From Sinomonas notoginsengisoli (lineage in GTDB: Bacteria > Actinomycetota > Actinomycetes > Actinomycetales > Micrococcaceae): a stretch of DNA of 64,000 nucleotides. Every line of letters starts with the position of its first letter. Position 1 is the stretch's first letter. Where the stretch lies: positions 124,001-188,000 of the forward strand of contig NZ_JAIZDP010000004.1 of NCBI RefSeq assembly GCF_021554725.1, in the 5' to 3' direction. The position numbers and the translations under genes are program-made. Below are positions 7,194-39,443 of the stretch, in pieces. The notes under the pieces were generated by a model. That model was not told the origin of the DNA and made no database searches. It saw nothing but the letters and a program-made list of their open reading frames with translations.

Positions 7194-8903
<1,710 letters not shown>

Positions 8904-8975
8904 TCACCCCAGGCTCAGTATGCCCAGATCACCTCTGGCTGCTCCACCTCCCGCGCCAGTATTTCGGCGCTGATC

Positions 8976-8989
8976 AGGACCAAAGACTC
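8976..8989. promoter_or_regulatory. DevR/DosR-box-like site between devS and csp
   Basis: AGGACCAAAGACTC matches 8 of the 12 fixed positions of the DosR consensus GGGACTNNAGTCCC, with both half-sites partly kept. It lies in the 177-bp divergent region, about 79 bp from the kinase start and 86 bp from the Cys-rich gene start, where one dimer could control both. Confidence 0.4.
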
Positions 8990-9074
8990 TCGCGGAGCAG
9001 CTGGTGCGACGCAAGCATGGGGTGAGGAGCGGCGTCGCCCGTCCCGGCATCACGCAAAGATCCAGGAGCACCGC

Positions 9075-9485
9075 ATGTCACACGCCCGCCAGGCCCTAGT
9101 AGTCCACCCCGCCGCGCCGGACATGGACGAATCCCAGCGAACGGCCCTGAGCGAGTGCATCGATGCAGCACTCGCCTGCGGCCAGGCCTGCACCACCGGC
9201 GCGGACGCCTGCCTCGAGGAACCGGGCGTGACGCACCTGCGCCACCTGATCCGGGCCCAGCAGAACTGTGCGGCCATGTGCTCGGCCACGGCACAGATCC
9301 TCTCGAGGTTCGGCTCCGACTTCGGCCCCACCCCGGCCTCCGTGCTCCGCGCCCTCGACGACGTGGCTGCGCTGTGCGAGGACGTGTGCGGCGTGTATGC
9401 GGGGGCCTACGCCCACTGCAGGGTGGCCGCCGAATCCTGCGCCCGGGTGCGGGTCGCCGCCGCCGCGATGCTGGCCCTGGACTGA
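9075..9485 (+). CDS. Four-helix-bundle Cys-rich copper-storage-like protein
   Basis: A 136-residue cytosolic protein (no signal peptide) with ten cysteines at positions 28, 35, 39, 46, 65, 69, 101, 105, 115 and 122. Most sit in CxxxC or longer helical spacings that point into the core of a four-helix bundle, the pattern of Csp-type copper storage proteins. Csp proteins bind many Cu(I) ions and buffer copper in the cytoplasm. An AGGAG lies 7 nt before the ATG. The PEP synthase start follows only 4 bp after the stop, so the two are almost surely co-transcribed, an odd partner for a copper store. The DevR-like box upstream suggests redox or hypoxia control. Confidence 0.75.
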   Translation: MSHARQALVVHPAAPDMDESQRTALSECIDAALACGQACTTGADACLEEPGVTHLRHLIRAQQNCAAMCSATAQILSRFGSDFGPTPASVLRALDDVAALCEDVCGVYAGAYAHCRVAAESCARVRVAAAAMLALD

Positions 9486-9489
9486 CGCC

Positions 9490-11919
9490 GTGTCCGCGCC
9501 GTCCAGTCCCGGAACGCCGCTCGTCCTCACGTTCGAGGAGGTCGGCCTCGCCGACCTGGCCCGAGTCGGAGGGAAGAACGCCTCTCTGGGGGAACTCACC
9601 CGGCACCTCCGGGAAGTCGGCGTCGCCGTCCCTGAGGGCTTCGCCACGACCGCGGCCGCGTACCGCCTCTTCGTCGACGCGAACAGGATCCGGGATTCCC
9701 TGGCCGACCTGCTCTCCGCATTCCGCGCAGAGCAGGCAAGCCTGAGGCGCACCGGCGCAGCCGCCCGGGACCTCTTCCTCTCGGGGAGCTTCCCCGAGGA
9801 GCTCGCGACGGCGGTGCGCGCCGCGTACCGCGACCTCGCCGCCCGGGTGGGGCGGGACCAGCCGTCCGTGGCCGTGCGGAGCAGCGCGACCGCGGAGGAC
9901 CTGCCCGAGGCAAGCTTCGCGGGGCAGCAGGAGACCTTCCTGAACGTGGTGGGCGAGGACGAGCTGATCGACGCGTGCCGTCGGTGCTTCGCCTCGCTCT
10001 TCACTGACCGTGCCATCACCTACCGGGAACTGCGCGGGATCGACCACCTCGACGTCGCGCTCTCGATCGGCGTGCAGCGCATGGTCCGCTCCGATCTGGC
10101 CGGTTCAGGAGTCATGTTCTCCCTCGACACCGAATCCGGCTTCCCCCGGATGGTGGAGATCAGCGCCGCCTGGGGCCTGGGCGAGACCGTGGTGCAGGGC
10201 ACGGTAAATCCGGACTCGTACGAGGTTTTCTCGCCATTGTTGGCCCAAGCAGGGGCCCGACCCATCATCTCCCGCACGGCCGGGGCCAAGGAGGGCAAGC
10301 TCGTCTTCGCCGGGGGCTCGGGGACGGAGATGCTCGAGACGTCCCCTGCGGAGCGCGCCGGGTTCGTGCTCGACGACGACGAGATCCTCACGCTCGCCCG
10401 ATGGGCCGTCGCCGTGCAGGAGCACTACGGCCGGCCGATGGACATGGAATGGGCCAAGGACGGAGAGACACGCGAGCTGTTCATGGTCCAGGCGCGGCCC
10501 GAGACCGTGCAGGCACGGCGTGGCACCTCGGCGTTCCGGGTCCACCACCTGACGGGAACCGGGCCCGTCCTTGCCCACGGCGCGGCGATCGGGGACGCCG
10601 TGGCGTCCGGCGAGGCGTGCGTCATTGCGGACCCGTCCCAGATCGCGACCTTCCGCGACGGCGCAATCCTCGTCACCACCATGACGGATCCTGACTGGGT
10701 GCCGATCATGAAGCGCGCCTCGGGAATCGTGACAGACCATGGCGGCCCCACGAGCCACGCAGCGATCGTGAGCCGCGAGCTTGGCGTGCCGGCCGTCGTG
10801 GGGACCGTGAGCGGCACCACATCGATCACGGACGGGGAGCCGATCACGGTCTCGTGCGCCCAGGGCGCGGAGGGCCTCGTGCTCGGCGGGCTCGTCCCGT
10901 TCGAGGTGGAGGACGTGGATGTCGGGGCGCTGCCGGAGACCCGAACCCACATCATGGTGAACCTCGCCGACCCCTCGGCAGCATTCCGGTGGTGGCGCCT
11001 GCCCGCCTCCGGCGTGGGGCTCGCGCGCATGGAGTTCGTCATCAGCAACCTCATCCGCGTGCACCCGATGGCCCTCGTGCATCCCGAGCGGGTCGAGGAT
11101 CCCAGTGAGCGGGAGGAGATCGAGGAGCTCACCCGCGGCTACGCCGACCCGACAGAGTACTTCGTGGAGCGGCTGGCGACGGGCATCGCCAAGATCGCCG
11201 CACCCTTCCACCCTGGTCCCGCGATCGTGCGGCTGAGCGACTTCAAGACCAACGAGTACGCAGGACTGCTCGGGGGCGCCGCCTTCGAGGATGCCGAGGA
11301 GAACCCCATGCTCGGCTTCCGCGGTGCCTCGAGGTATTACGACGACCGCTACAAGGAGGGTTTCTCCCTCGAGTGCCGGGCCCTGAAGAGGGCGCGGGAG
11401 GGGCTCGGGTTCGCGAACGTGATTGTCATGGTGCCCTTCTGCCGCACACCGGGGGAGGCTGATGCCGTGCTGGCTGCGATGGCCGAGCACGGGCTGGCCC
11501 GCGGAGAGAACGGACTCAAGGTGTACATGATGTGCGAGATCCCCTCGAACGTGGTGCTCGCCGAACAGTTCGCCTCCCGATTCGACGGGTTCTCCATCGG
11601 GTCCAACGACCTCACTCAGCTCGTTCTCGGCGTGGACCGCGACTCAGAGCGGCTCGCGTCCCGGTTCGACGAGCGCGATGAGGCGGTCACCACGATGATC
11701 GCCGAGGCCATCCGGAAGTCCCACGAGGCCGGAATCCCCATCGGCATCTGCGGCCAGGGCCCGAGCAACCATTCGGACTTCGCCGAGTTCCTCGTCGGTG
11801 AGGGCATCGACTCCATCTCCCTCAACCCGGACAGCGTGCTGCGCACAGTGCCCATCATCGCCGCTGCAGAGGACCGCACGAAGGCAGGGGCAGCCGCTAA
11901 GGCAGAGGCAGCCGGGTGA
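9490..11919 (+). CDS. ppsA: Phosphoenolpyruvate synthase
   Basis: An 809-residue enzyme converting pyruvate, ATP and water to PEP, AMP and phosphate, the entry to gluconeogenesis. The N-terminal ATP-binding domain has GGKNASLGEL and AVRSSATAEDLPEASFAGQQ. The swivelling phosphohistidine domain has GGPTSHAAIVSRELGVPAVV with catalytic His423. The C-terminal TIM barrel holds the PEP/pyruvate site (SIGSNDLTQLVLG). Length is typical for PpsA and shorter than pyruvate phosphate dikinase. The start is GTG at 9490, only 4 bp after the Cys-rich gene; the frame is open further upstream but inside that gene. A strong hairpin follows the stop. Confidence 0.92.
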   Translation: MSAPSSPGTPLVLTFEEVGLADLARVGGKNASLGELTRHLREVGVAVPEGFATTAAAYRLFVDANRIRDSLADLLSAFRAEQASLRRTGAAARDLFLSGSFPEELATAVRAAYRDLAARVGRDQPSVAVRSSATAEDLPEASFAGQQETFLNVVGEDELIDACRRCFASLFTDRAITYRELRGIDHLDVALSIGVQRMVRSDLAGSGVMFSLDTESGFPRMVEISAAWGLGETVVQGTVNPDSYEVFSPLLAQAGARPIISRTAGAKEGKLVFAGGSGTEMLETSPAERAGFVLDDDEILTLARWAVAVQEHYGRPMDMEWAKDGETRELFMVQARPETVQARRGTSAFRVHHLTGTGPVLAHGAAIGDAVASGEACVIADPSQIATFRDGAILVTTMTDPDWVPIMKRASGIVTDHGGPTSHAAIVSRELGVPAVVGTVSGTTSITDGEPITVSCAQGAEGLVLGGLVPFEVEDVDVGALPETRTHIMVNLADPSAAFRWWRLPASGVGLARMEFVISNLIRVHPMALVHPERVEDPSEREEIEELTRGYADPTEYFVERLATGIAKIAAPFHPGPAIVRLSDFKTNEYAGLLGGAAFEDAEENPMLGFRGASRYYDDRYKEGFSLECRALKRAREGLGFANVIVMVPFCRTPGEADAVLAAMAEHGLARGENGLKVYMMCEIPSNVVLAEQFASRFDGFSIGSNDLTQLVLGVDRDSERLASRFDERDEAVTTMIAEAIRKSHEAGIPIGICGQGPSNHSDFAEFLVGEGIDSISLNPDSVLRTVPIIAAAEDRTKAGAAAKAEAAG

Positions 11920-28420: not shown

Positions 28421-29173
28421 CTATTCCGCCGGGCGGAGCCGCAGCCCCTGCATGCCCCCGTCTACCGCGAGGGAGGTCCCGGTAGTGGACCCAGCTGACG
28501 GGGAGGCGAGATAGGTCATCGCGGCGGCCACCTCGTGCGGGGTGACGAGCCGTCCGTGGGGTTGCCGGGCGTTCAGGGCTGCCCTCTCGGCGTCTGGGTG
28601 TTCGGCAGAGGCGAGCAGGCGCCCGACCCAGGGCGTGTCGGCGGTGCCGGGGTTGACGCAGTTGACCCGGATGCCCTCCCGCAGATGGTCAGCGGCCATG
28701 CTCAGCGTGAGCGAGAGGACGGCCCCTTTGCTCGCCGAATAGAGGGCCCGCGAGGGGATCCCGGCGGTCGCCGCGATCGAGCATGTGTTCACGATGGCTG
28801 CCGCCTGCGAACGGCGCAGGTACGGCAGGGCCGCACGACTGACGCGCACCATTCCGAGCACATTGACGTCGAACACCCGGCGCCACTCATCATCGGCATT
28901 GTCTTCAACCGTGCCCTGCGCGCCGATGCCGGCGTTGTTGACCACAATATCCAGCCGTCCGAACCTGTCGACAACGGCTTGCACCGCTGCCACAACTGAC
29001 TCGTCGTCTGCCACATCGCAGTCCACGGCGAACAGCCCGCTGGCGGCATCCCCCGGATTCAGGTCGAGGACTGCCACTGTTGCGCCCGCTGCGGCCAGTC
29101 TCGCCGCGGCGGCCGCACCGATGCCGGAGGCACCTCCGGTGACGATAGCCACCATCGAGTCCAATTCATGCAT
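28421..29173 (-). CDS. SDR dehydrogenase of the sugar-acid operon
   Basis: A 250-residue short-chain dehydrogenase with TGGASGIGAAAAARL (cofactor), VVNNAGIGAQG, the Ser of NTCSIAATAG and the catalytic YSASKGAV. VLDLNPGD after strand 2 favours NAD. The context points to oxidation of a sugar or of a 2-keto-3-deoxy sugar acid, for instance the C4 oxidation that precedes the diketo-acid hydrolase encoded just upstream; the exact substrate is a guess. The start at 29173 has GGAAGGAG before it. It is the last gene of the nine-gene leftward operon, 37 bp after the hydrolase stop. Confidence 0.82.
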   Translation of the reverse strand: MHELDSMVAIVTGGASGIGAAAAARLAAAGATVAVLDLNPGDAASGLFAVDCDVADDESVVAAVQAVVDRFGRLDIVVNNAGIGAQGTVEDNADDEWRRVFDVNVLGMVRVSRAALPYLRRSQAAAIVNTCSIAATAGIPSRALYSASKGAVLSLTLSMAADHLREGIRVNCVNPGTADTPWVGRLLASAEHPDAERAALNARQPHGRLVTPHEVAAAMTYLASPSAGSTTGTSLAVDGGMQGLRLRPAE

Positions 29174-29210
29174 GCGGTCTCCTTCCGTTGCCGCTCGCTT
29201 TTGCTGCTGG

Positions 29211-30092
29211 TCAGGCCTGGGCGAATGTCTGGCGTTGCCGGCCGAGGCCTTCAACTTCGAGTTCGACGACGTCGCCGGCTGCCAGATAGGGGAACCTGCC
29301 CGAGAGCGCCACGCCCTCCGGCGTGCCAGTCATGACGACATCCCCAGGCTCCAGTGCCATGTACTGGCTCACGTGATGGATCAGGTAATGCACCGGGAAG
29401 ATCATGTCCGCCGTACTCGAATCCTGCCGGGGCTCGGCGTTGACCCAACTGCGCAGCCGCAGGTTGTGCACGTCCACCTCCTCCGCTGGCACCAGCCACG
29501 GGCCGAGCGGGGAAAACCCAGGAGCGCACTTGCCCTTGGACCACTGGCCGCCGGAATCCTCCATCTGGAACGTGCGCTCCGACAGGTCATTCGCCACGAG
29601 GTACCCAGCAATGTGCGACGCTGCGTCCTCCACTGAACACAGGTAGCCAGCCCGCTGGCCAATGACCACGCCCAACTCCACCTCCCAGTCGGTCGTGGTG
29701 CTGTTGCGCGGAATGAACGCTGTGTCGTCCGGTCCGGCAACGGTGTTCGGGGTTTTGAGGAAGATCATCGGCGCCTTCGGCGGCTGCGCGCCGGACTCTG
29801 CCGCGTGCGCGGCGTAATTCATCCCGACGCAGACGATCGCCGACGGGCGCGCGACAGGGGAACCCACGCGCAGCCCCTCGGCGTCCAACTCAGGGAGGGC
29901 CCCATCGGCCAGCTGTCGGCGCACCTCGTCAATGCCCCCGCCCGCCAGGAAGGCCCCGTCGATGTCCGCCGTCAGCGGTGACAGATCATACGTCTTCTCG
30001 CTGCCAGCGCCGTCCCCGGCGATGACGGCCGGAAGCTCAGCTCCCAGCGGCCCGAGCCGGACAAACTTCAATCCCTGTGGTTTCAGATCCAT
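29211..30092 (-). CDS. FAH-family diketo-acid hydrolase
   Basis: A 293-residue fumarylacetoacetate-hydrolase-fold enzyme. CVGMNYAAHAAESG begins the catalytic domain; metal ligands fit WEVELGVVIG (Glu-x-Glu) and the Asp of VANDLSERTFQ. The strings SGGQWSKGK and FSPLGPWLVPAEEV are close to 2,4-diketo-3-deoxy-L-fuconate or -rhamnonate hydrolases, which give pyruvate and L-lactate. The lactate-oxidising flavoenzyme in the same operon fits that. The ATG at 30092 has AGGAGG upstream. The frame continues into the preceding gene only because that gene is frameshifted. Confidence 0.82.
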   Translation of the reverse strand: MDLKPQGLKFVRLGPLGAELPAVIAGDGAGSEKTYDLSPLTADIDGAFLAGGGIDEVRRQLADGALPELDAEGLRVGSPVARPSAIVCVGMNYAAHAAESGAQPPKAPMIFLKTPNTVAGPDDTAFIPRNSTTTDWEVELGVVIGQRAGYLCSVEDAASHIAGYLVANDLSERTFQMEDSGGQWSKGKCAPGFSPLGPWLVPAEEVDVHNLRLRSWVNAEPRQDSSTADMIFPVHYLIHHVSQYMALEPGDVVMTGTPEGVALSGRFPYLAAGDVVELEVEGLGRQRQTFAQA

Positions 30093-30124
30093 CGGTCTTT
30101 CTGTCCTCCTGGAAATGGGTTGCT

Positions 30125-31334
30125 TCACAGTCTGGTCACTCGCCGAGAGGTGTCCTCCCGGGAGAGGAACCCGCTCGTCAGCTCGATTCCGTGGCCGGGG
30201 GCCGACGTTGTGGTGATGGTGCCGTTGCTGAGCACGGGCAGGCCTGTGGCGATGTCTTGATACCAGCCGTGGTAGAAGGCGCGGGCAACTTTCCTGGACT
30301 TCGACGTTCGGGGTGGCGGTCGCGAGATGTACTGCGGTAGCGAGCGCGACCGGGCCGGTGCAGTCGTGGAGTGCTATGGGCAGGCCGTGGCTGTCAGCGA
30401 GGTGGGCGGCTTTCCTCCCCTGGGTGACGCCTCCGCACCATCCGAGGTCAAGGATCGCGGTGTCGATGGCGTTGTTGTCGAAGAGGGCTTTGTAGCCGAG
30501 GTTCCCGGCGCCGGTGCTCTCTCCGACTGCGATGGGGATGGGGGTCCGCGCGCGGAGCGCGGACAGCGCTGCTGGCTGGTCGGATCTGATCGGGTCTTCC
30601 GCCCAGGTGAGGCCGAAGGGTTCAACGGCGTAAAGGAGGCGGCTCGCTCCTGAGAGGGTCCATTGTCCGTGCAGCTCGAGGTAGATATTGATCTCATCAC
30701 CGACCTCGTTCCTGATCGCGTCAAGGACGGCCAGCCCGGGGCGGAGGTCAGCGGTCCGGCTTCCGCGGCTTTGCTCCGCGGCGAGGTCGAATGGCCAGAT
30801 CTTCATGCCGGGGTAACCGGCATCTACCAGTTCTCGGGCCAATTTCGCCGGCTCATGGTGGAATGCCCACAGGTCTTCATAACGGTCCGCCGGTGCCGAG
30901 TCAGCGCTGAGGGGAGTGCCCCAATTGGACGAAGATTGGCAGGACTGGGCGTTGATGTAGGAGTACCCGGCACAGGTGTTGTAGACGGGGAGTCCATCAT
31001 TGAAGCGGCCGCCGAGCAGTTCGTTCAGCGGTAGGGATGCCCGTTTGGCCAGCAAGTCCCAGAGGGCGATGTCGATCGCAGAATTGCCGCGGGCTTCCGC
31101 GCCGGAGCCGGAATAGCCGATGTAGGGCTCCAGGGCAGCGGCAGCGGCGGAGGGTGTGTCCGCTCCGCCTTCGGCGAGCAAGGGGGCGGCGACGTCGTGG
31201 ATGTAGGCTTCGACGCTCGTGGCGCCGAAGAAGGTCTCCCCCAAGCCGAGGGTCCCGTCCTGGTCTCGGATGGCGACGAGGGTGAGGTTGGGCTGAAGCG
31301 CTGTTCTGATCGTTTCAATTTCCGTGATGGCCAT
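30125..31334 (-). pseudogene. Enolase-superfamily sugar-acid dehydratase, frameshifted near the C-terminus
   Basis: A mandelate-racemase-type dehydratase: N-terminal lid, KIWPFD (general base Lys), metal ligands in YLELHGQW, WAEDPI and VGEST, and the catalytic His of LHDCTGPV. Near 30281-30290 one extra base throws the frame off. Before it the protein reads PNVEVQES; after it the sense continues in the +1 frame as RAFYHGWYQDIATGLPVLSN and ends TSRRVTRL then TGA at 30125-30127, the normal family C-terminus. In frame, translation runs on into the next gene. The last 55 or so residues are therefore lost or altered. A sequencing error is the simplest alternative. GAGGAGC precedes the ATG. Confidence 0.8.
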
Positions 31335-31435
31335 GGTGCTCCTCGTGGGGGCCGGGTGATGGGGTCGGATTCACAGTTCGGAAATGGGGAAGATCCGGTG
31401 CCGGAGCGCCTCTAGTGCGAGCAGCGGGTGCGGGG

Positions 31436-32896
31436 CTACGACTGCCCGGGGCGATCCCAGCGTCCGTCGATCCGCTGCGGGACGCGCCACGGATTCTCAT
31501 CCCGAAGCGGTTCGGGCAGGAGGCCTGGCGGGAAAGACTGATAGGAGACGGGGCGAAGGAAGCGGCGGATGGCAGCCGTGCCGACCGACGTGGTGTTGGA
31601 GGTCGTCGCCGGGTAGGGGCCGCCGTGGTGTTGGGCGTAGCTGACGGTGACGCCGGTGGGCCAGCCGTTCCAGAGGACACGGCCGCTGATTCCTGCGAGG
31701 ACCTCCAGCAGGTTGGTGGGGGTCTCATCCGGTTCCGTCTGAAGGGTCGTGGTGAGCTGGCCTTCGAGAAGCCCCGCAAGGTCCGGAAGCTTCATGTCAT
31801 CCTCGTACTCGATCACGAGGCTGGCGGGCCCGAACATCTCCTGACGCAGCAGCTCAGGTTGGGCCAGCACGTCGGCGCCCGTGGTGTGCAGAACAGTCGG
31901 TGCGGGCTGGGGCGCGAAGGTTCCTTCCACGAGGACGTCAACCTCTGACTGGTCCCGGAGTGCGGTGACGGAGCGCTCGTAGCCTTCGAGTATGCCGCTG
32001 CTGAGGAGCCGGATCGGCGTGAAGCCCGACAGTGCTTCCGAGAGGAGCCGGCGCAGTTCTTCTCGGCCGGTGGCCGGGACGAACAACAGTCCGGGCTTGG
32101 TGCAGAACTGGCCCATGCCCAGGGTGAAGGAGTTCACATACTCCTTCAGGATGCTCTCCCTGCGCCGCTGCCATGCAGCTGTCGTCACGAAGACGGCGTT
32201 GATGCCGCCGAGTTCGCCGTAGAACGGGATGGGCTCGGGCCGACTCTGGGCCCGCTGCAGGAGGGCCCGGCCCCCTGCGGTGGAGCCGGTGAACCCGACG
32301 GCTTTGATGAGCGGGTGGTCTACGAGGTTTTCGCCGGCAGTCCGGCCGGCCACGAGGGAGAACAGCCCTGGGGGCGCCCCGGCGGACTCGAGGGCTGCCG
32401 CAACCGTCTGCGCTGTTTGTTCGGCGAGGTCCGGGTGCGCCTCGTGGGCCTTGTGGACCACGGAGCACCCAGCGGCGAGGGCCGAGGCGCTGTCACCTCC
32501 CATCACGCTGAAGGCGAAGGGGAAGTTGGAAGCGCCAAAGACGCCGACTACCCCCACCGGCTGGTTGACCCGGCGCAGGTCCGGCCTAGGACCCATTCCC
32601 CAGTGAGGATCAGAGTGGTCTATCGTCGCGTCGAGGTGTTCGCCTTGACGGATCTCGCCCGCGAACAGCTCCAGCTGGAATATGCTTCGCCTGAGCTCCG
32701 ATTCGAGCCTTGGTTTCCCCAACGAGGTCTCCCGGTCGGCAATGGCCACAAGTGCCGCCTCGTTCCGGGCCAGTCCGTCAGCGATGGCCTCGAGCCACGA
32801 GGCCCGGGTGGATAGGTCGACGTGCCGGCCGACGTGAAATGCTTCATAGGCTGCACGAACAGCGGTATCGACTTCGTGCGGGCTGGTGTCCTTCAT
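31436..32896 (-). CDS. Aldehyde dehydrogenase, 2-oxoglutarate semialdehyde type
   Basis: A 486-residue NAD(P)-dependent aldehyde dehydrogenase. It has GVFGASNFPFAFSVMGGDSA (cofactor and catalytic Asn region), GFTGSTAGGRAL, the glutamate of YGELGGINAVF and the nucleophilic Cys of GMGQFCTKPGL. The GELGGINAVFV and GQFCTKPG forms are those I associate with 2-oxoglutarate semialdehyde (2,5-dioxovalerate) dehydrogenases, the last step of oxidative pentose and sugar-acid routes. The dehydratase-type gene upstream would supply that semialdehyde. GGAGGC lies about 10 nt before the ATG. Confidence 0.85.
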   Translation of the reverse strand: MKDTSPHEVDTAVRAAYEAFHVGRHVDLSTRASWLEAIADGLARNEAALVAIADRETSLGKPRLESELRRSIFQLELFAGEIRQGEHLDATIDHSDPHWGMGPRPDLRRVNQPVGVVGVFGASNFPFAFSVMGGDSASALAAGCSVVHKAHEAHPDLAEQTAQTVAAALESAGAPPGLFSLVAGRTAGENLVDHPLIKAVGFTGSTAGGRALLQRAQSRPEPIPFYGELGGINAVFVTTAAWQRRRESILKEYVNSFTLGMGQFCTKPGLLFVPATGREELRRLLSEALSGFTPIRLLSSGILEGYERSVTALRDQSEVDVLVEGTFAPQPAPTVLHTTGADVLAQPELLRQEMFGPASLVIEYEDDMKLPDLAGLLEGQLTTTLQTEPDETPTNLLEVLAGISGRVLWNGWPTGVTVSYAQHHGGPYPATTSNTTSVGTAAIRRFLRPVSYQSFPPGLLPEPLRDENPWRVPQRIDGRWDRPGQS

Positions 32897-32972
32897 ACGG
32901 GTGCTGCCTCCGTGATTTGTGCGGATGCGGGCTGGTGGCGTTGTCTTGGTCGCCGTGGGAGGAATCTGGGCA

Positions 32973-33884
32973 TCAGGCCCAGCCCAGGATGAGGGGGTCG
33001 TTTCTTCGAGCGAGGCTGACCAGCCGGTGGTGGGTATGAGGCGGCAGATCGGGGAGAGGAGATCTGGTCTTGGCGCTTGCGATGATGCGGCCTTCCTTCA
33101 GCAGAGCTTTCGCTGCACGCAGGCCGCACTGCCGGTTCTCGAAATGGATGAGCGGCAGTATTGCTTCCCAGTCTTTGGCCGCTTCCTCGCGTTCGCCCTT
33201 GTGGAAGCGGCGGACGATCGCGCCCAGCTTGTCGGGAAGCATCGAGCTGGACATCGTCCCGCTGGCGCCCGCCTCCAGATCCGGAATCAACGTGATGCCT
33301 TCCTCTCCGTCGAAGGGGCCTGGCAGGTCATCCCCGGCTGCTGTGATCAGCGAGCGCAGCTTCTCCGCTGTCTGCGGCATCTCGATCTTGACGTACTTGA
33401 CCTGTGGGATTTCCCGGGCCAAGCGCGCCAGCAGTGACACCGAAAGCCGGGTTGGGCTTACCGGGGCGTCCTGGACCATGACGTCTATCTCCAGCCCGTC
33501 CGCGAGCTTCTTGAAGTATTCGAGGATCGCTTCCTCGTCGGCGACGACTCCGGCTCCGTAGAACGGCGGCATCAGCATCACCATCGAGGCCCCCAGTTCC
33601 TGCGCTCGCATAGCACGGGCCCGGGCGACCTTGGCGCTGAAGTGGCTCGCGGCTACGCAAACAGGAAGGCGTCCGCCCACGTGCTCCAATGCGCTCCGGG
33701 TGATCAGGTCCCGCTCCGAGTCATCGAGCGAGAATTGTTCCGAAAAGTTCGCCAGAAGGCACACCCCGTCGGAGCCAGCATCCATGAGGTAGTCGAGGAC
33801 GCGCAGCTGTCCGGCGAGGTCGAGGGTCTCGTCGTCGGAAAAGATGGTAGGGGCCACAGGCAAGACCCCGCTTAGCACAGACAT
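32973..33884 (-). CDS. DHDPS-family 2-keto-3-deoxy-arabonate dehydratase-like
   Basis: A 303-residue TIM-barrel class I lyase. Lys166 in YVKIEMPQ is the Schiff-base residue. The motifs ILANFSEQ-like LLANFSEQFSLDD, MVMLMPPFYGAG and VQDAPVSPT are those of L-2-keto-3-deoxyarabonate dehydratases rather than of dihydrodipicolinate synthase, where a Tyr follows. The product would be 2-oxoglutarate semialdehyde, oxidised by the next gene's enzyme. 5-Dehydro-4-deoxyglucarate dehydratase gives the same product type and is the main alternative. AAGGAG lies 7 nt before the ATG. Confidence 0.82.
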   Translation of the reverse strand: MSVLSGVLPVAPTIFSDDETLDLAGQLRVLDYLMDAGSDGVCLLANFSEQFSLDDSERDLITRSALEHVGGRLPVCVAASHFSAKVARARAMRAQELGASMVMLMPPFYGAGVVADEEAILEYFKKLADGLEIDVMVQDAPVSPTRLSVSLLARLAREIPQVKYVKIEMPQTAEKLRSLITAAGDDLPGPFDGEEGITLIPDLEAGASGTMSSSMLPDKLGAIVRRFHKGEREEAAKDWEAILPLIHFENRQCGLRAAKALLKEGRIIASAKTRSPLPDLPPHTHHRLVSLARRNDPLILGWA

Positions 33885-33902
33885 CGTGCTCCTTTCGGCG
33901 TC

Positions 33903-34784
33903 TCAGACACGGGCGACCGGGTTGGCGAGCGTCCCGATGCCCTCGATGGCAATGCTCACGGTGTCCCCCTCGGACAGAATGAAGTCCAGGCCCGGGACGA
34001 CGGAGGTCCCCGTCGACAGCACAGCGCCTTCGGGGTAGGCCTCTGCCCTGAGGAGGTACGCAGAGAGTTCCGAGAATGTCCTCTTGAGTTTCGCCGTCGA
34101 CGTGTCCCCCTTCCACACCACTTCGCCATGGCGCGTGATCTCCATCGCGATTCCTGCGTCTTCCGGGTGGGGCAGGTGGGTCGCCAACCGGATCCAGGGA
34201 CCGATCGCGCAGCTGTGCCGGTATACCTTGGCCTGAGGCAGGTAGAGCGGGTTCTCCCCTTCGATGGATCGGGAGCTCATGTCGTTGCAGATGGTGTAGC
34301 CAAGGACTTCGCCTCGGAAGTTCAGAACGAGAGCGAGTTCCGGTTCCGGTACATTCAATTCCGAATCGCTTCGGATGCCTGCCGCTCCCCCGGGGCCGGA
34401 CACCCGCCACCCGAGCGCCTTGAAGAACAGCTCCGGCCGCTCGGCGTCGTACACCCGGTCATAGATGTCCGCCTCAGTGCTTTCCTCCATCCGGGCTTCC
34501 TTGGAGATCTGGTAGGTCACTCCTGCTGCCCACACTTCCGTGTGGTCGTCCACGGGAGCGAGGACCTGCACCGGTGCCTCAGAGGCGAGGGGCGCTGCTT
34601 CAAGCATGCGCAGGGCTTCGGGAACCTCGAGGGCCAGCAAGGTCCCGAGTCGGGCCTCCGCGTCGAGGACCCGCAATCCGCCCCGGCTTTGGTAGAACCA
34701 GCGGATCGAGCCGCACGCCGTGCGCGCTTTCATGAGAGTTCCTACAGGCATATCGCTTGGGTTCACCATCTGTTTCCTACTCAC
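33903..34784 (-). CDS. FAH-family protein, D-2-keto-3-deoxyarabonate dehydratase-like
   Basis: A 293-residue FAH-fold enzyme different from the one at 29211. The strings AAGVTYQISKEARMEES, YDRVYDAERPELFFKA and NDMSSRSIEGENPLYLPQAK are those of FAH-type 2-keto-3-deoxy-D-arabonate dehydratases, known from the oxidative pentose pathway of Sulfolobus. This is a second, structurally unrelated route to 2-oxoglutarate semialdehyde in the same operon. The GTG start at 34784 overlaps the upstream stop (GTGA); an ATG five codons later is possible. Assigning D or L stereochemistry from sequence alone is not safe. Confidence 0.78.
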   Translation of the reverse strand: MSRKQMVNPSDMPVGTLMKARTACGSIRWFYQSRGGLRVLDAEARLGTLLALEVPEALRMLEAAPLASEAPVQVLAPVDDHTEVWAAGVTYQISKEARMEESTEADIYDRVYDAERPELFFKALGWRVSGPGGAAGIRSDSELNVPEPELALVLNFRGEVLGYTICNDMSSRSIEGENPLYLPQAKVYRHSCAIGPWIRLATHLPHPEDAGIAMEITRHGEVVWKGDTSTAKLKRTFSELSAYLLRAEAYPEGAVLSTGTSVVPGLDFILSEGDTVSIAIEGIGTLANPVARV

Positions 34785-36079
34785 CGCTTCGGGGCTGGGG
34801 TATGGGGGTTCACGTGACGTTCGGCGATTTTCGCCGTTCCGTCGAGGCCGAGGAGTTGGAGGCCGCGCCGATATTCCGAACGAAGGATCTCGACCGCGCG
34901 CTCGACGCCGGCTTCCCCACCCGCCATCAGGCCATAGAGATAAGCCCGCCCAACCATCACGGCGTCCGCTCCCAGAGCAACGGCAGCAATGATGTCCTGT
35001 CCATGCCGGACTCCGCTGTCCAGGAGCACTGTCGTGTCAGGGCCTACGGCGTCCCGCACTGCAGGCAGCATGTCGAGGCTGGCAGGAGCGCGGTCGAGTT
35101 GCCGTCCGCCATGGTTGGACACGACGACGCCGTCGGCCCCGAGATCCATCACCCGGCCTGCATCCGCGGGGTTCTGAATCCCCTTAACCAGGAGCTTGTG
35201 CGGCCATTTCTTCCTCAGCCACGCCAGGTCCTCGTAGTCCAGCCCCGGGTCGAACAAGAGGGCCGCGACGTCGGCGGAGGTCCCCGGGAAGTCACGGACG
35301 GAGGCGAACTCGATCGGTGCGGTGGTGAGCTTGTTGACCCACCAGTAGGGGAAGCGGGACATGTCGAAGAAGGTCTTCAGGGTCAAGGACGGCGGGATCG
35401 TGAGGCCGTTTCGGACGTCCTTCAGCCTGCGCCCGCCCACGGCTGTGTCGATGGTCAGGACCACCGTCCTGCTGCCGGCCTCCAGCGCCCGGTCCACCAG
35501 CTGGTTGTTCAACCGGTGGTTGTTGGTGAGGTAGAGCTGGAACCAGTTCTGGCCCTCGGGCGCGGCCTCCCAGATTCCCTCAATAGTGTCGGTTCCCACC
35601 GTGGAGAGGGTGTACGGCAGGTTGTTGCGCTGGGCAACCCGCGCGACTGCCCCCTCCCCCTGGTGGTGCATCATGCGGGTGTATCCGGTGGGCGCGAAGA
35701 CGAGGGGGAAGTCGATCCGTTCTCCCAGCAGTTCTGTGGAGAGATCCGGGTCCACCACCGAATTGAGGTTCTCGGGAATGAATTCTGTTTCCCGGAAGGC
35801 GTGCACGTTTCGCGAAGCCGTGATTTCAGCATCTGCCGCACCGTCGACGTAATCGAAGACAGCACGCGGTGTAGTGCGGCGTCCAATGCGCCGGAGGTCC
35901 TCTATCGTGAGGGCGTTCTCCAATCGCCGTTTCACCGGATCTAGAACGGGCGCGCGGAACTGCAGCAGCTCGCGGACCTCCGACAGTCGGGGCAGCTGCC
36001 GGCGCACCGGCACGCTGCCGTCGGGGGCGGGCTGCACCTGCGGTGCGGCTGCTACGTGCCTTGTTTCGGTCACGGTCAT
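34781..36079 (-). CDS. lldD: FMN-dependent alpha-hydroxy-acid dehydrogenase (LldD-like)
   Basis: A 432-residue flavoenzyme with an FMN-binding TIM barrel. VFDYVDGAADAEITASRN, FAPTGYTRMMHHQGEGAVAR and the catalytic His and Arg of VVSNHGGRQLD are those of L-lactate dehydrogenases/oxidases. The N-terminal 45 residues are extra and Pro-rich. It would turn the L-lactate released by the diketo-acid hydrolase into pyruvate, or oxidise another 2-hydroxy acid. GGAGGTACTCC is present before the ATG, which overlaps the upstream stop by 4 bp; its own stop overlaps the next start by 4 bp. Confidence 0.86.
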   Translation of the reverse strand: MTVTETRHVAAAPQVQPAPDGSVPVRRQLPRLSEVRELLQFRAPVLDPVKRRLENALTIEDLRRIGRRTTPRAVFDYVDGAADAEITASRNVHAFRETEFIPENLNSVVDPDLSTELLGERIDFPLVFAPTGYTRMMHHQGEGAVARVAQRNNLPYTLSTVGTDTIEGIWEAAPEGQNWFQLYLTNNHRLNNQLVDRALEAGSRTVVLTIDTAVGGRRLKDVRNGLTIPPSLTLKTFFDMSRFPYWWVNKLTTAPIEFASVRDFPGTSADVAALLFDPGLDYEDLAWLRKKWPHKLLVKGIQNPADAGRVMDLGADGVVVSNHGGRQLDRAPASLDMLPAVRDAVGPDTTVLLDSGVRHGQDIIAAVALGADAVMVGRAYLYGLMAGGEAGVERAVEILRSEYRRGLQLLGLDGTAKIAERHVNPHTPAPKR

Positions 36080-37131
36080 TGGAGTACCTCCGGATTCACG
36101 ATGTTCCGGGGCGTCTGCCCGGCGACAGCGTCCATCACGTTCTCTGCCGTGCGGCGCTTGAGCTCTTCCTGTGACTCTTCGCTGTACCAGGCGGCGTGCG
36201 GGGTGAGGACCACGTTGTCAAGTCCCAAGAGCCTGGCGCCGGGTGGAAGGGGCTCTTCCTCGAACACGTCGAGCCCGGCACCGCGGATAGTGCCCGACTG
36301 GAGCGCCTCGACGAGGGCTTCCGTGTCTACGACGCCGCCGCGGCAGGTGTTGATCAGCAAGGCTCCGGCCTTCAACCGTGCCAGCACGTCGGCGTCGATG
36401 AGATGGTGCGTGTGCCGGTTGAGGGGGACATGCAGGGAGAGCACGTCGGCGCGGCTGATGAGCTCGTCGAACCCCACGACCTCCGTTCCATCCGGGCTGA
36501 CGGTGCCGGGAGTGTGGAGGGGGTCGAACCCAATGGTGCTGTAGCCGACCCCCCTCGCCTTCCGTGCGGTGGCCGCGCCGATCAGGCCTAGCCCGACCAC
36601 CCCGAAGACCCTTCCTGAAAGGCGATGCAGGGGCTGGGCTGGCGCGAGGGAGCAGTCGCCCCGTCGCACCGCGCGATCGAGCATGGCCACTCCGCGGGCC
36701 AGGGTCATCGTCAAGGCGAGCGCGTGGTCGCTGACGTCCTCCGTGCCGTAGTCCGGGACGTTGCAGACGGCCACGCCGAACTCGGTTGCGGCGTCCACGT
36801 CCACGTTGTCCACGCCGACTCCGTAGCGTCCCACGGCCTTCAATCCGGGCAGAGCCTCAAAGACCTTCCGCGTGACGGGAGCGTACTGGACGAGGATCCC
36901 GCGGGCATCGGCCGCCGCACGGATAACGTCTTCCTCCGTCCGGCAGTCAGCCCGGACCAATTCCATTCCCCTCGATCTGGCCACGGCCTCTTCCTCGGCG
37001 AGGCACTCTTGGTCCCAGTCGGTGACGACGATGCGCATTGAAGCGCCGGATGATTCACCGCCGGTGTCAGTTGCGTCCTCGCGCAGGGGCGCGGCGACGT
37101 CGGCAGCGTGCGTGCCTGAAGGCGATGTCAC
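36076..37131 (-). CDS. D-isomer-specific 2-hydroxyacid dehydrogenase
   Basis: A 351-residue NAD-dependent dehydrogenase of the SerA/CtBP group. VGRYGVGVDNVDVDAATEFG, the Rossmann GVVGLGLIGAATARKA, the catalytic Arg in NTCRGGVVDT, the Glu of DVFEEEPLP and the His of LTPHAAWYS are all present. It lacks the ACT and intervening domains of full SerA. The substrate is unknown; reduction of a 2-keto sugar acid or glyoxylate-like acid fits the operon. The GTG start overlaps the transporter stop; ATG at 37038 would remove an atypical 31-residue leader but has no ribosome site. Confidence 0.83.
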   Translation of the reverse strand: MTSPSGTHAADVAAPLREDATDTGGESSGASMRIVVTDWDQECLAEEEAVARSRGMELVRADCRTEEDVIRAAADARGILVQYAPVTRKVFEALPGLKAVGRYGVGVDNVDVDAATEFGVAVCNVPDYGTEDVSDHALALTMTLARGVAMLDRAVRRGDCSLAPAQPLHRLSGRVFGVVGLGLIGAATARKARGVGYSTIGFDPLHTPGTVSPDGTEVVGFDELISRADVLSLHVPLNRHTHHLIDADVLARLKAGALLINTCRGGVVDTEALVEALQSGTIRGAGLDVFEEEPLPPGARLLGLDNVVLTPHAAWYSEESQEELKRRTAENVMDAVAGQTPRNIVNPEVLQ

Positions 37132-38534
37132 AGGTCACCCTCCGTCGCCGGGGCCGGCTGCCGCTGCGTCTGCTCTTGGTCAACGTAGCCGTACACCTCG
37201 GGGAGGATGTACGTCGCGGCTAGGAACCCGGTCAGGGACAGCAGGGCCACCAATGCGGTGGCCAGCGGGACGCCGAGTGCGGTGAACATGATGGGGAAGA
37301 AGAAGATCGTGACGAACGATGCGAGCTTCACGAAGATGTAGCCGAACCCCGAAGCGGTCGCGCGGTAGCGTGACGGGGCGACCATGGAGGCGATCGTCAT
37401 GCCGTTGGACGCATCCCAGTAGTGGCCGAACATCAGACCGGCTGCCGCGAGGGGGACCAGTGGCTTCCAGTCCACCTGCAGGAAGATGGCCGCAAGGATG
37501 AGGGAGACGAACGCCAGGCCGTAACCCACACGGGCGACGCCCTTGTGCCCGATCTTCGGAGTGGCCAGCGGTGCCGTGAAGCCGCCGATCGTTGCGATGA
37601 CGTAAATCCCAGCGGTAAGGAAGTTGGTCGCCGTAATACCGGACACGCCGGTGAGGATGAGGATGGTGGGCAGGTAGAACCCGAAGGCAGAGAATTCGGC
37701 GCCCTGCATGGCGTTGGAGATCCAAGCGAAAATGGTTGCCCGGCGGCGCGTGCGGTCGGCCCAAATGCTGGAAAGGAAGTCCCGGGTGCGGGGACGGTCG
37801 ATCGCATAGTCCTGATTGGGGAGCATGTCGAGGTCGTCATTGAACATCTCGCGCGAGACCTTCTTGGCCTGCGCGAACTTCCCGCGCTGGATCAGGGCGA
37901 GGGCGGTGTCGGGAACGTCGAGGCGCATGACCAGCAAGGCAAGAGCAGGAACGGCCCCTAGCGCCAGTCCGAGCCTCCACAGCAGGGCTTGGTCCATGCC
38001 CGTCATGTAGAGGATGGTGATCACCACGATGGCGACGATCTCCCCGACACCGAACATCATCTGCCACCGGTTGCCCATCACTTCGCGCTTGCCCCTGGGC
38101 ATGCTCTCCATGATGTACGCGTAACCGGTGGAGATGTCGCTCCCGAGCGGGAAGCCAAGCAGGAACCGGATGATGACCAACTGCCACATATCGGTGGCGA
38201 AGCCCTGAGCAGCGGCAAGCACGATAAAGGCGACCATGGTGGCTAGGAACACCTTCCGCCTGCCGAAGCGGTCCGCGATCCAGCCTCCGAAGAATGCACC
38301 TAGGAGCGCTCCGGCCTGGACTGCGCCCGAGGCCAGGCCCAGCATGGCCGGGCTGGGGTGCAGGTCCTTGCTCACGAAAATCAGGAGGAAGGAAATCGAG
38401 TAGAGATCCCAGGCCTCTATCAGGATGGTGGAAATCATCAGCCACCCCGCACGCCGCCCGTCGCCTGTTCCTTCCTGGTTCAGCACATGCTCGGCGGCCC
38501 GGTCGCTGAGGCTCAGCAGTTCTTTCTGGTCCAT
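37128..38534 (-). CDS. MFS transporter, sugar-acid or organic-acid:H+ symporter
   Basis: A 468-residue major facilitator with 12 membrane segments and a central cytosolic loop. GGWIADRFGRRKVFLATM is the loop 2-3 signature, and LGFPLGSDISTGYAYIMESM resembles the aromatic/organic-acid and sialate symporter branches. It is the first gene of the leftward catabolic operon and so very likely imports the sugar acid. ATG at 38534 has AAGGAG 8 nt upstream; the long open frame further up is not coding. The transcript has a leader of about 65 nt that contains the operator pair. Confidence 0.86.
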   Translation of the reverse strand: MDQKELLSLSDRAAEHVLNQEGTGDGRRAGWLMISTILIEAWDLYSISFLLIFVSKDLHPSPAMLGLASGAVQAGALLGAFFGGWIADRFGRRKVFLATMVAFIVLAAAQGFATDMWQLVIIRFLLGFPLGSDISTGYAYIMESMPRGKREVMGNRWQMMFGVGEIVAIVVITILYMTGMDQALLWRLGLALGAVPALALLVMRLDVPDTALALIQRGKFAQAKKVSREMFNDDLDMLPNQDYAIDRPRTRDFLSSIWADRTRRRATIFAWISNAMQGAEFSAFGFYLPTILILTGVSGITATNFLTAGIYVIATIGGFTAPLATPKIGHKGVARVGYGLAFVSLILAAIFLQVDWKPLVPLAAAGLMFGHYWDASNGMTIASMVAPSRYRATASGFGYIFVKLASFVTIFFFPIMFTALGVPLATALVALLSLTGFLAATYILPEVYGYVDQEQTQRQPAPATEGDL

Positions 38535-38560
38535 TACGGCTCCTTCGCCGATCAATTGCG

Positions 38561-38595
38561 TTCCGTTTGACGGAATGGCATTCGATATGTTGGAA
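38561..38595. promoter_or_regulatory. Two phased 15-bp operator boxes
   Basis: TTCCGTTTGACGGAA (38561-38575, perfect 6-bp arms around TTG) and TTCGATATGTTGGAA (38581-38595, TTC-N9-GAA) have the same outline and start exactly 20 bp apart, two helical turns. They lie between the leftward promoter and the transporter start, so bound protein could block transcription or act on both divergent genes. The IclR regulator encoded next door is the natural candidate; that link is inference. Confidence 0.6.
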
Positions 38596-38606
38596 TCGTA
38601 TAGGAA

Positions 38607-38635
38607 ACAGTATGTAGGGTCACGGGTCGTGTCAA
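38607..38635 (-). promoter_or_regulatory. Sigma-70-type promoter of the catabolic operon
   Basis: On the minus strand TTGACA (38630-38635), a 17-bp spacer and TACTGT (38607-38612) form a near-consensus promoter. Transcription would begin near 38600, about 65 nt before the transporter ATG, upstream of the two operator boxes. It is the best -35/-10 pair I see in the window. Confidence 0.75.
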
Positions 38636-38690
38636 ATGCCCGATTCCGGCAGAGAGCGGCCTCCACCGCGTGAAGGGAAGAAGCAGACCG

Positions 38691-39443
38691 ATGACTTCGA
38701 TGAGCTCCGGCGAAGGGGCTGCTTCGAGGAAACTCCTCAGAGTCCTCGAAGCACTCGGGAGCGCCGAAGGCCCCTTGCGCCTGGCGTCTCTGGCGGCGGA
38801 AACGGGTATGGCCAAGTCCACTGCGCATCGCCTGCTGGCCGTACTGGTCGCGGAAGGGTGGGCGGCTAGCCGCGAGGGCTCCTATGAGCTGGGGCCCCGG
38901 GCCAGGGCTGTTGCTGCAGCAGCGATACGCGACCCGGTCAACGCCAGCGTGGACGCAGTCCTTCAGGGCTTGTCCACGGAAGTCTCCCAGACGGTGCATC
39001 TGGGGCTGGCAGCAGGCGATCACTTCATCTACACCCACAAAGTGGAGGGCCCGCAGGGCTTCGGCATCGCCTCACACGTCGGAATGAAACAGCTCCTGCA
39101 CAGCACTGCGATCGGCAAATGCATTCTTGCGGGAGTGGGCGACGCGGAGCTGGCGGACCTAGTCCGGCGCACAGGCTTGCCTGCCCGAACGACTCGCACA
39201 CACGACACCCTCGACGCCTTGCTGGCCGATCTCGCCGGCGTGAGGGAAAGGGGCTTCGCATTGGACGACGAGGAAAACGAAGACAACATCCGCTGCGTCG
39301 CCGTGCCCGTCCGCATCAATGCCAAAACCATTGGCGCCATCAGCATCTCAACAGTCACGCTGCTCACCGATCTCGACACCGTTGTCGGCTTCGTACCCGC
39401 CATGAACAAGGCAGCCGCCCGGGTACAAGGGCTTCTGACGTGA
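38691..39443 (+). CDS. IclR-family transcriptional regulator
   Basis: A 250-residue regulator with an N-terminal winged helix (residues 13-70, including LASLAAETGMAKSTAHRLLA) and a C-terminal effector domain with GMKQLLHSTAIGKCILA and the tail VVGFVPAMNKAAARVQ. IclR proteins usually sense a pathway acid. ATG at 38691 is chosen over GTG at 38670 because AAGGGAAG lies about 10 nt upstream and the HTH then begins at the usual distance. It is divergent from the nine-gene operon and followed by the kinase and aldolase genes, and so probably controls both arms. Confidence 0.87.
   Translation: MTSMSSGEGAASRKLLRVLEALGSAEGPLRLASLAAETGMAKSTAHRLLAVLVAEGWAASREGSYELGPRARAVAAAAIRDPVNASVDAVLQGLSTEVSQTVHLGLAAGDHFIYTHKVEGPQGFGIASHVGMKQLLHSTAIGKCILAGVGDAELADLVRRTGLPARTTRTHDTLDALLADLAGVRERGFALDDEENEDNIRCVAVPVRINAKTIGAISISTVTLLTDLDTVVGFVPAMNKAAARVQGLLT

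Follow-up and report, generated by a model that had tools for sequence, protein, structure and literature searches.

In the window, by which we mean the whole stretch of 64,000 nucleotides analysed here, a putative sugar-acid gene cluster contains a dehydratase gene whose reading frame is broken before its end (Table 1). A minus-strand ORF of 707 amino acids begins with the ATG at 31334 and has no stop before 29211, as read from the ORF list and the sequence. This ORF (29211-31334) consists of 348 dehydratase residues, 66 out-of-frame residues and 293 residues of a FAH-family protein. The last in-frame residues of the dehydratase body are VEVQE, codon 348 of about 402, and the remainder of the C-terminus is found in the +1 frame at 30125-30283 (RAFYHGWY...RVTRL; RAFYHGWYQDIATGLPVLSN...RVTRL), followed by its own stop at 30125. 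It should be underlined that the three bases of the A run at the break are indistinguishable with regard to which of them is the extra one. A codon-usage HMM, which is blind to homologs, placed the frame change at 30290; it detected the break in five of six parameter settings and missed it in the sixth. Since the ortholog alignment and this HMM agree, the frame break is no chance reading. The earlier note had described a frameshift after VEVQE with the C-terminus in the +1 frame, and this was borne out by the ORFs, the ortholog alignment and the codon HMM. Its second claim, that frame 0 skips the stop at 30125 and fuses with the FAH hydrolase, agrees with the single 707-residue ORF.

Table 1. 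Features of the broken dehydratase gene and of the surrounding cluster (window positions).
Feature	Position	Strand	Basis
SDR dehydrogenase, intact	28421..29173	-	ORF, family profile, G031 alignment
FAH-family hydrolase, intact, own ATG at 30092 and AGGAGG upstream	29211..30092	-	
66 out-of-frame codons (frame 0) ahead of the FAH start codon, predicted unfolded	30093..30290	-	
Displaced C-terminal segment, +1 frame, 54 residues (52 from RAFY onward), own stop at 30125	30125..30289	-	
Frame break, A run one base longer than in the two nearest intact orthologs	30290..30292	-	Alignment, codon HMM
Enolase-superfamily (MR-type) acid-sugar dehydratase, in-frame body, codons 1-348	30291..31334	-	MR_MLE_N and MR_MLE_C, ortholog identity
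Aldehyde dehydrogenase (ALDH), absent at the corresponding place in the G031 cluster	31436..32896	-	ORF, family profile
DapA-family aldolase/dehydratase, intact	32973..33884	-	Family profile, G031 alignment
Second FAH-family protein, intact	33903..34784	-	Family profile, G031 alignment
LldD-like FMN hydroxyacid dehydrogenase, intact; models below cut-offs	34781..36079	-	
D-2-hydroxyacid dehydrogenase-like protein, intact; models below cut-offs	36076..37131	-	
MFS sugar-type transporter, intact; start codon picked by comparison with G031	37128..38531	-	
IclR/KdgR-type regulator, likely belonging to the cluster	38670..39443	+	

Orthologs of the dehydratase body are rare among related genomes. 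Among the other 14 genomes of the genus, G007 was the sole carrier (68% identity) at E ≤ 1e-60, and a search of the family at E ≤ 1e-80 matched three of 395 genomes, namely the genome of the window itself, G007 and G031, the last belonging to another genus (86%). The orthologs in G031 (401 aa) and G007 (402 aa), the nearest to the window gene, are both intact and have one base fewer at the break. To these two loci we added the best 80 among the matches listed, giving a homolog set of 82 loci. The site is covered in 81 of the 82, and all 81 are in frame across it; 79 of the 81 run for 53-63 further residues to a stop (counts among the matches listed). The two odd loci, L043, which stops further upstream, and L046 are not broken at the site of the window gene. 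L046 (7029-7100) is a Mesorhizobium dehydratase homolog with a stop 23 residues beyond the site, and its C-terminal segment is disrupted elsewhere. The frame of the window gene is thus broken relative to intact orthologs, as expected of a unitary pseudogene.

Both MR_MLE domains were recognised in the window dehydratase, PF02746 with 44.9 bits (cut-off 22) and PF13378 with 143.3 bits (cut-off 29.4). The C-domain match of the body stops at profile position 178 of 219, whereas the intact orthologs in G007 and G031 reach positions 218 and 216, respectively. Residues E220, H222, E246, D247, E272, H323, D324 and E348, which we take to be metal ligands and catalytic residues as in the enolase superfamily, were invariant in 40 aligned rows, comprising the window and 39 of 77 usable loci among the matches listed; L010 (the same as L092), L037, L043, L046 and L090 were excluded before alignment for being unoriented, short, disrupted or truncated at a contig end. 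These invariant positions all precede the break, and the break itself falls within conserved sequence, as judged by the homolog alignments. In a structure model of the frame-0 product, the body was predicted mostly with high confidence and the joining stretch with pLDDT 39-62; the model of the intact relative L011 had pLDDT 79-91 across its last five 10-residue blocks. The frame-0 product therefore lacks a complete barrel with its C-terminal segment in frame, the last 54 residues being replaced by a stretch predicted to be unfolded. The nearest solved chains, the MR-type structures 2pod, 4dx3 and 3dip, have the same domains and match over the whole body, from which the window copy differs in that its C-terminal segment is out of frame. 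As a conserved segment of the C-terminal fold would be lost, loss of activity seems likely, and a barrel without this segment is probably inactive. The crippled dehydration step suggested in the earlier note is plausible as well, since the lost tail is conserved and predicted to fold in relatives while its replacement is predicted to be unfolded.

To judge the age of the break, we compared the displaced tail with the rest of the gene. Against G031, the tail shows 84.6% amino acid identity and a dN/dS of 0.105 (52 codons), and the body 85.6% and 0.093; the seven neighbouring genes aligned in full with dN/dS values of 0.045-0.198. Neutral evolution of the tail over at least 25% of the window lineage after its separation from G031 was disfavoured (P about 0.045, rough Poisson). 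Against G007, the window tail appeared less conserved than the body (59.6% versus 68.3% identity; dN/dS 0.36 versus 0.17). However, the window tail (59.6%, dN 0.442) has diverged from G007 no further than the intact tail of G031 has (59.6%, dN 0.456), and we therefore rejected decay as the reason for the weaker conservation. A tail conserved like the body means that the break is either recent or not real, and a tail without detectable decay is equally compatible with a sequencing error.

Next we used the codon HMM to compare the frequency of broken frames between assemblies. From the own genome, 617 kb on three contigs were sampled (about 17% of the genome), alongside 400 kb of G005 and 419 kb of G007, two relatives within the genus, and 139 kb of G031. 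At the setting 0.80/12, the numbers of candidates were 7, 8, 5 and 0, respectively, and across six settings they were 6-13 for the own genome, 8-14 for G005, 5-10 for G007 and 0 for G031; the own-genome candidates from two of the HMM runs were also read by eye, and the G005 and G007 counts are HMM output alone. The own rate was below that of G005 in all six settings, close to or below that of G007 in five, and above it in one (1.62 versus 1.19 per 100 kb). In its sampled part, the own assembly is thus not clearly richer in broken frames, though the smaller G031 sample had none.

Four of the six other candidates of the own genome (all except L098 and L107) were searched in the 15 genus genomes, and three had relatives to align; the gene names given here were assigned by eye. 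An acyl-CoA dehydrogenase (L093:19832, contig C23) has one extra base relative to seven of seven aligned relatives, and a histidine kinase (L106:19015, C27) one extra base relative to three of three, while an amino-acid permease (L093:11066, C23) has two bases fewer than seven of seven relatives. A phage-type integrase (L104:16758, C2) had no match beyond the own genome among the 15. Both one-base gains turn a two-base run into three, like that in the dehydratase, and this could reflect a tendency either of mutation or of the sequencing platform. The own genome has a second related copy of the acyl-CoA dehydrogenase, and with 3.59 Mb it is smaller than any other of the 15 genomes compared for the genus. 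Taken together, the second copy and the small genome fit gene loss, of which genome size is a weak sign. An AraC-type regulator (L098:16527, C23) is split into halves that occupy different frames, seemingly with the middle missing. We regarded the call at L107:3076 as probably false, the sequence being of low complexity. A call at 33065 in the DapA-family gene, made at the laxest setting, was also taken as false, as this gene aligns in full with G031. In G007, the HMM reported a broken frame at L091:13222 beside the related dehydratase cluster; the ORF over it gave no Pfam match at E 1e-5 and resembles an amidohydrolase-type lactonase by eye.

The break has an ordinary explanation, most likely a recent mutation or a sequencing error rather than special decoding. 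The earlier note had also allowed for a programmed shift. Recoding would here mean either a +1 ribosomal shift at the site or a 707-residue fusion that is a real product, and both frames are indeed open near the site, with the fusion frame open through the FAH gene. We nevertheless consider it very improbable. The frame change is not kept in orthologs, as all 81 covering loci among the matches listed are in frame, no slippery motif was seen around the site on inspection by eye, and the downstream RNA was no stabler than its shuffles (z +0.77 and +1.08; 158 and 180 of 200 shuffles folded as well or better). On the homolog and RNA results, programmed frameshifting was rejected as unsupported, leaving mutation and error from the earlier list. 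With regard to the fusion, the joining segment is predicted to be unfolded, and long open off-frames are common: in 28 hand-picked window genes, stops in the off-frame that frame 0 enters occurred at 0.0089 per codon, and of its 63-codon stretches 62% were open. A meaningful dehydratase-FAH fusion was therefore rejected as well; it looks like a by-product to be expected from open off-frames in GC-rich DNA. In G031 each of the two proteins has a gene of its own; in G007 their genes are on opposite strands with about 0.8 kb between them. The FAH frame of G031 also remains open upstream, for some 200 codons across the intact dehydratase (ORF 8395-9906, L092), though this is the other alternative frame than in the window because the gap before the FAH gene is 31 bases in G031 and 32 in the window. 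Least probable of all, to the point of being nearly negligible, is a shift that is tolerated or used, with a truncated dehydratase-FAH protein made along with some native protein through a +1 slip at a motif-less site.

Between the two ordinary explanations, we lean towards a recent one-base gain, AA to AAA, at 30290-30292 that breaks the dehydratase frame after codon 348. This is favoured by the intact orthologs in G031 and G007 and the in-frame state of every covering homolog among the matches listed, by the position of the break inside conserved sequence, and by the tail, which is predicted to fold in L011 while the out-of-frame one is not. Nor was the rate of broken frames above that of G005 in any of the six settings. 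Sequencing or assembly error, with the extra base absent from the organism and the gene encoding a normal dehydratase of about 402 residues, appears to us quite possible, if not the reading we would choose. It is in keeping with a tail constrained like the body against G031 and at the same distance from G007 as its intact counterpart in G031, and with seven neighbouring genes that align in full with G031. Moreover, the two further gains from a two-base to a three-base run in the same assembly may be a platform signature; they weigh against mutation, as do the absence of broken frames in 139 kb of G031 and the one setting in which the own rate exceeded that of G007. On the other hand, the candidate counts at 0.80/12 speak against error, and the two-base loss in the permease shows that other types of event occur. 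Runs of two or three bases are also a mild context for homopolymer errors. Antonov et al., who reported 206,991 genes with frame transitions across 1106 genomes and expected about a third of their predictions to be false, support both sides (PMC3711429). By their account, BLAST-validated singletons are expected to be sequencing errors and not genuine indels, which disfavours mutation and agrees with error; breaks near the 3' end lean towards indel mutation, which favours a real gain, the present break falling within the final 13% of the gene (PMC3711429). The weights that we attach to mutation, error and recoding are judgements and were not computed.

If the A was gained in this lineage and is really present in the organism, the ribosome would read 348 residues of the dehydratase and 66 unfolded ones, and then continue in frame into the FAH protein, which would also be initiated at its own ATG. 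The dehydratase would probably be inactive, and the remaining genes of the cluster would still be read. The strain would then be expected to be unable to metabolise the sugar acid entering the cluster, with the remaining cluster kept, and the locus would exemplify gene loss at a very early stage. It resembles an ordinary unitary pseudogene, or a singleton frameshifted gene as described by Antonov et al., in its one-base change, its intact orthologs and a break absent from the relatives compared (PMC3711429); it differs in that the break is too young for decay to show and that the extra base is a putative one. The significance is mainly one of annotation, as automatic calls will give either a pseudogene or a dehydratase-FAH fusion of 707 residues, and the latter should stay out of databases as a real fused enzyme.

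No close back-up of the dehydratase was found in the own genome, where superfamily matches were 25-32% identical. Three other MR-type dehydratase-like genes lie on contig C2, one of which passes the cut-off for galactonate dehydratase and one that for ManD, and there are weaker enolase-superfamily matches on C23 and C27 as well as two IlvD/EDD-family matches. The description of the broken gene as the only obvious sugar-acid dehydratase of the island thus needs qualification: the other acid-sugar dehydratases are located outside the island, while inside it the DapA-family enzyme might itself be the dehydratase of a later step.

The cluster fits a non-phosphorylative sugar-acid route. Known Route III hydrolases belong to the FAH family. 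No NCBIfam model scored above its cut-off for either the dehydratase or the FAH-family protein; the best and closest model for the latter was a Route III-type hydrolase (247 bits, cut-off 500). In Route III, as described for L-fucose, L-rhamnose and pentoses, the dehydratase acts before a dehydrogenase and a hydrolase (PMC6336799). The window shares with this route an acid-sugar dehydratase, an SDR dehydrogenase and a hydrolase in a single cluster, where they lie side by side, but the gene families named above for its cluster include neither a sugar dehydrogenase nor a lactonase, and the D-arabinonate dehydratase of Route III is, in contrast to the window enzyme, not of the enolase type (PMC6336799). 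In G007, the dehydratase, SDR and FAH-family genes are located beside two aldo-keto reductases and a RbsD/FucU-family gene, neighbours that point to L-fucose or a relative as the substrate in that genome.

Seven cluster genes (28421-39443) have 80-95% protein identity to those of G031 (L092), yet the dehydratase was found in three of 395 family genomes, a pattern suggestive of horizontal transfer or of widespread loss. A scan for promoters and terminators gave no more than in shuffles, and a plasmid DNA search yielded partial matches alone, covering at most 35% of the query. The ALDH gene separates the DapA-family gene from the dehydratase gene, a place where the otherwise collinear G031 cluster has 71 bases, and at the DNA level this ALDH gene shows about 71% identity to a plasmid gene of Rhodococcus opacus PD630.
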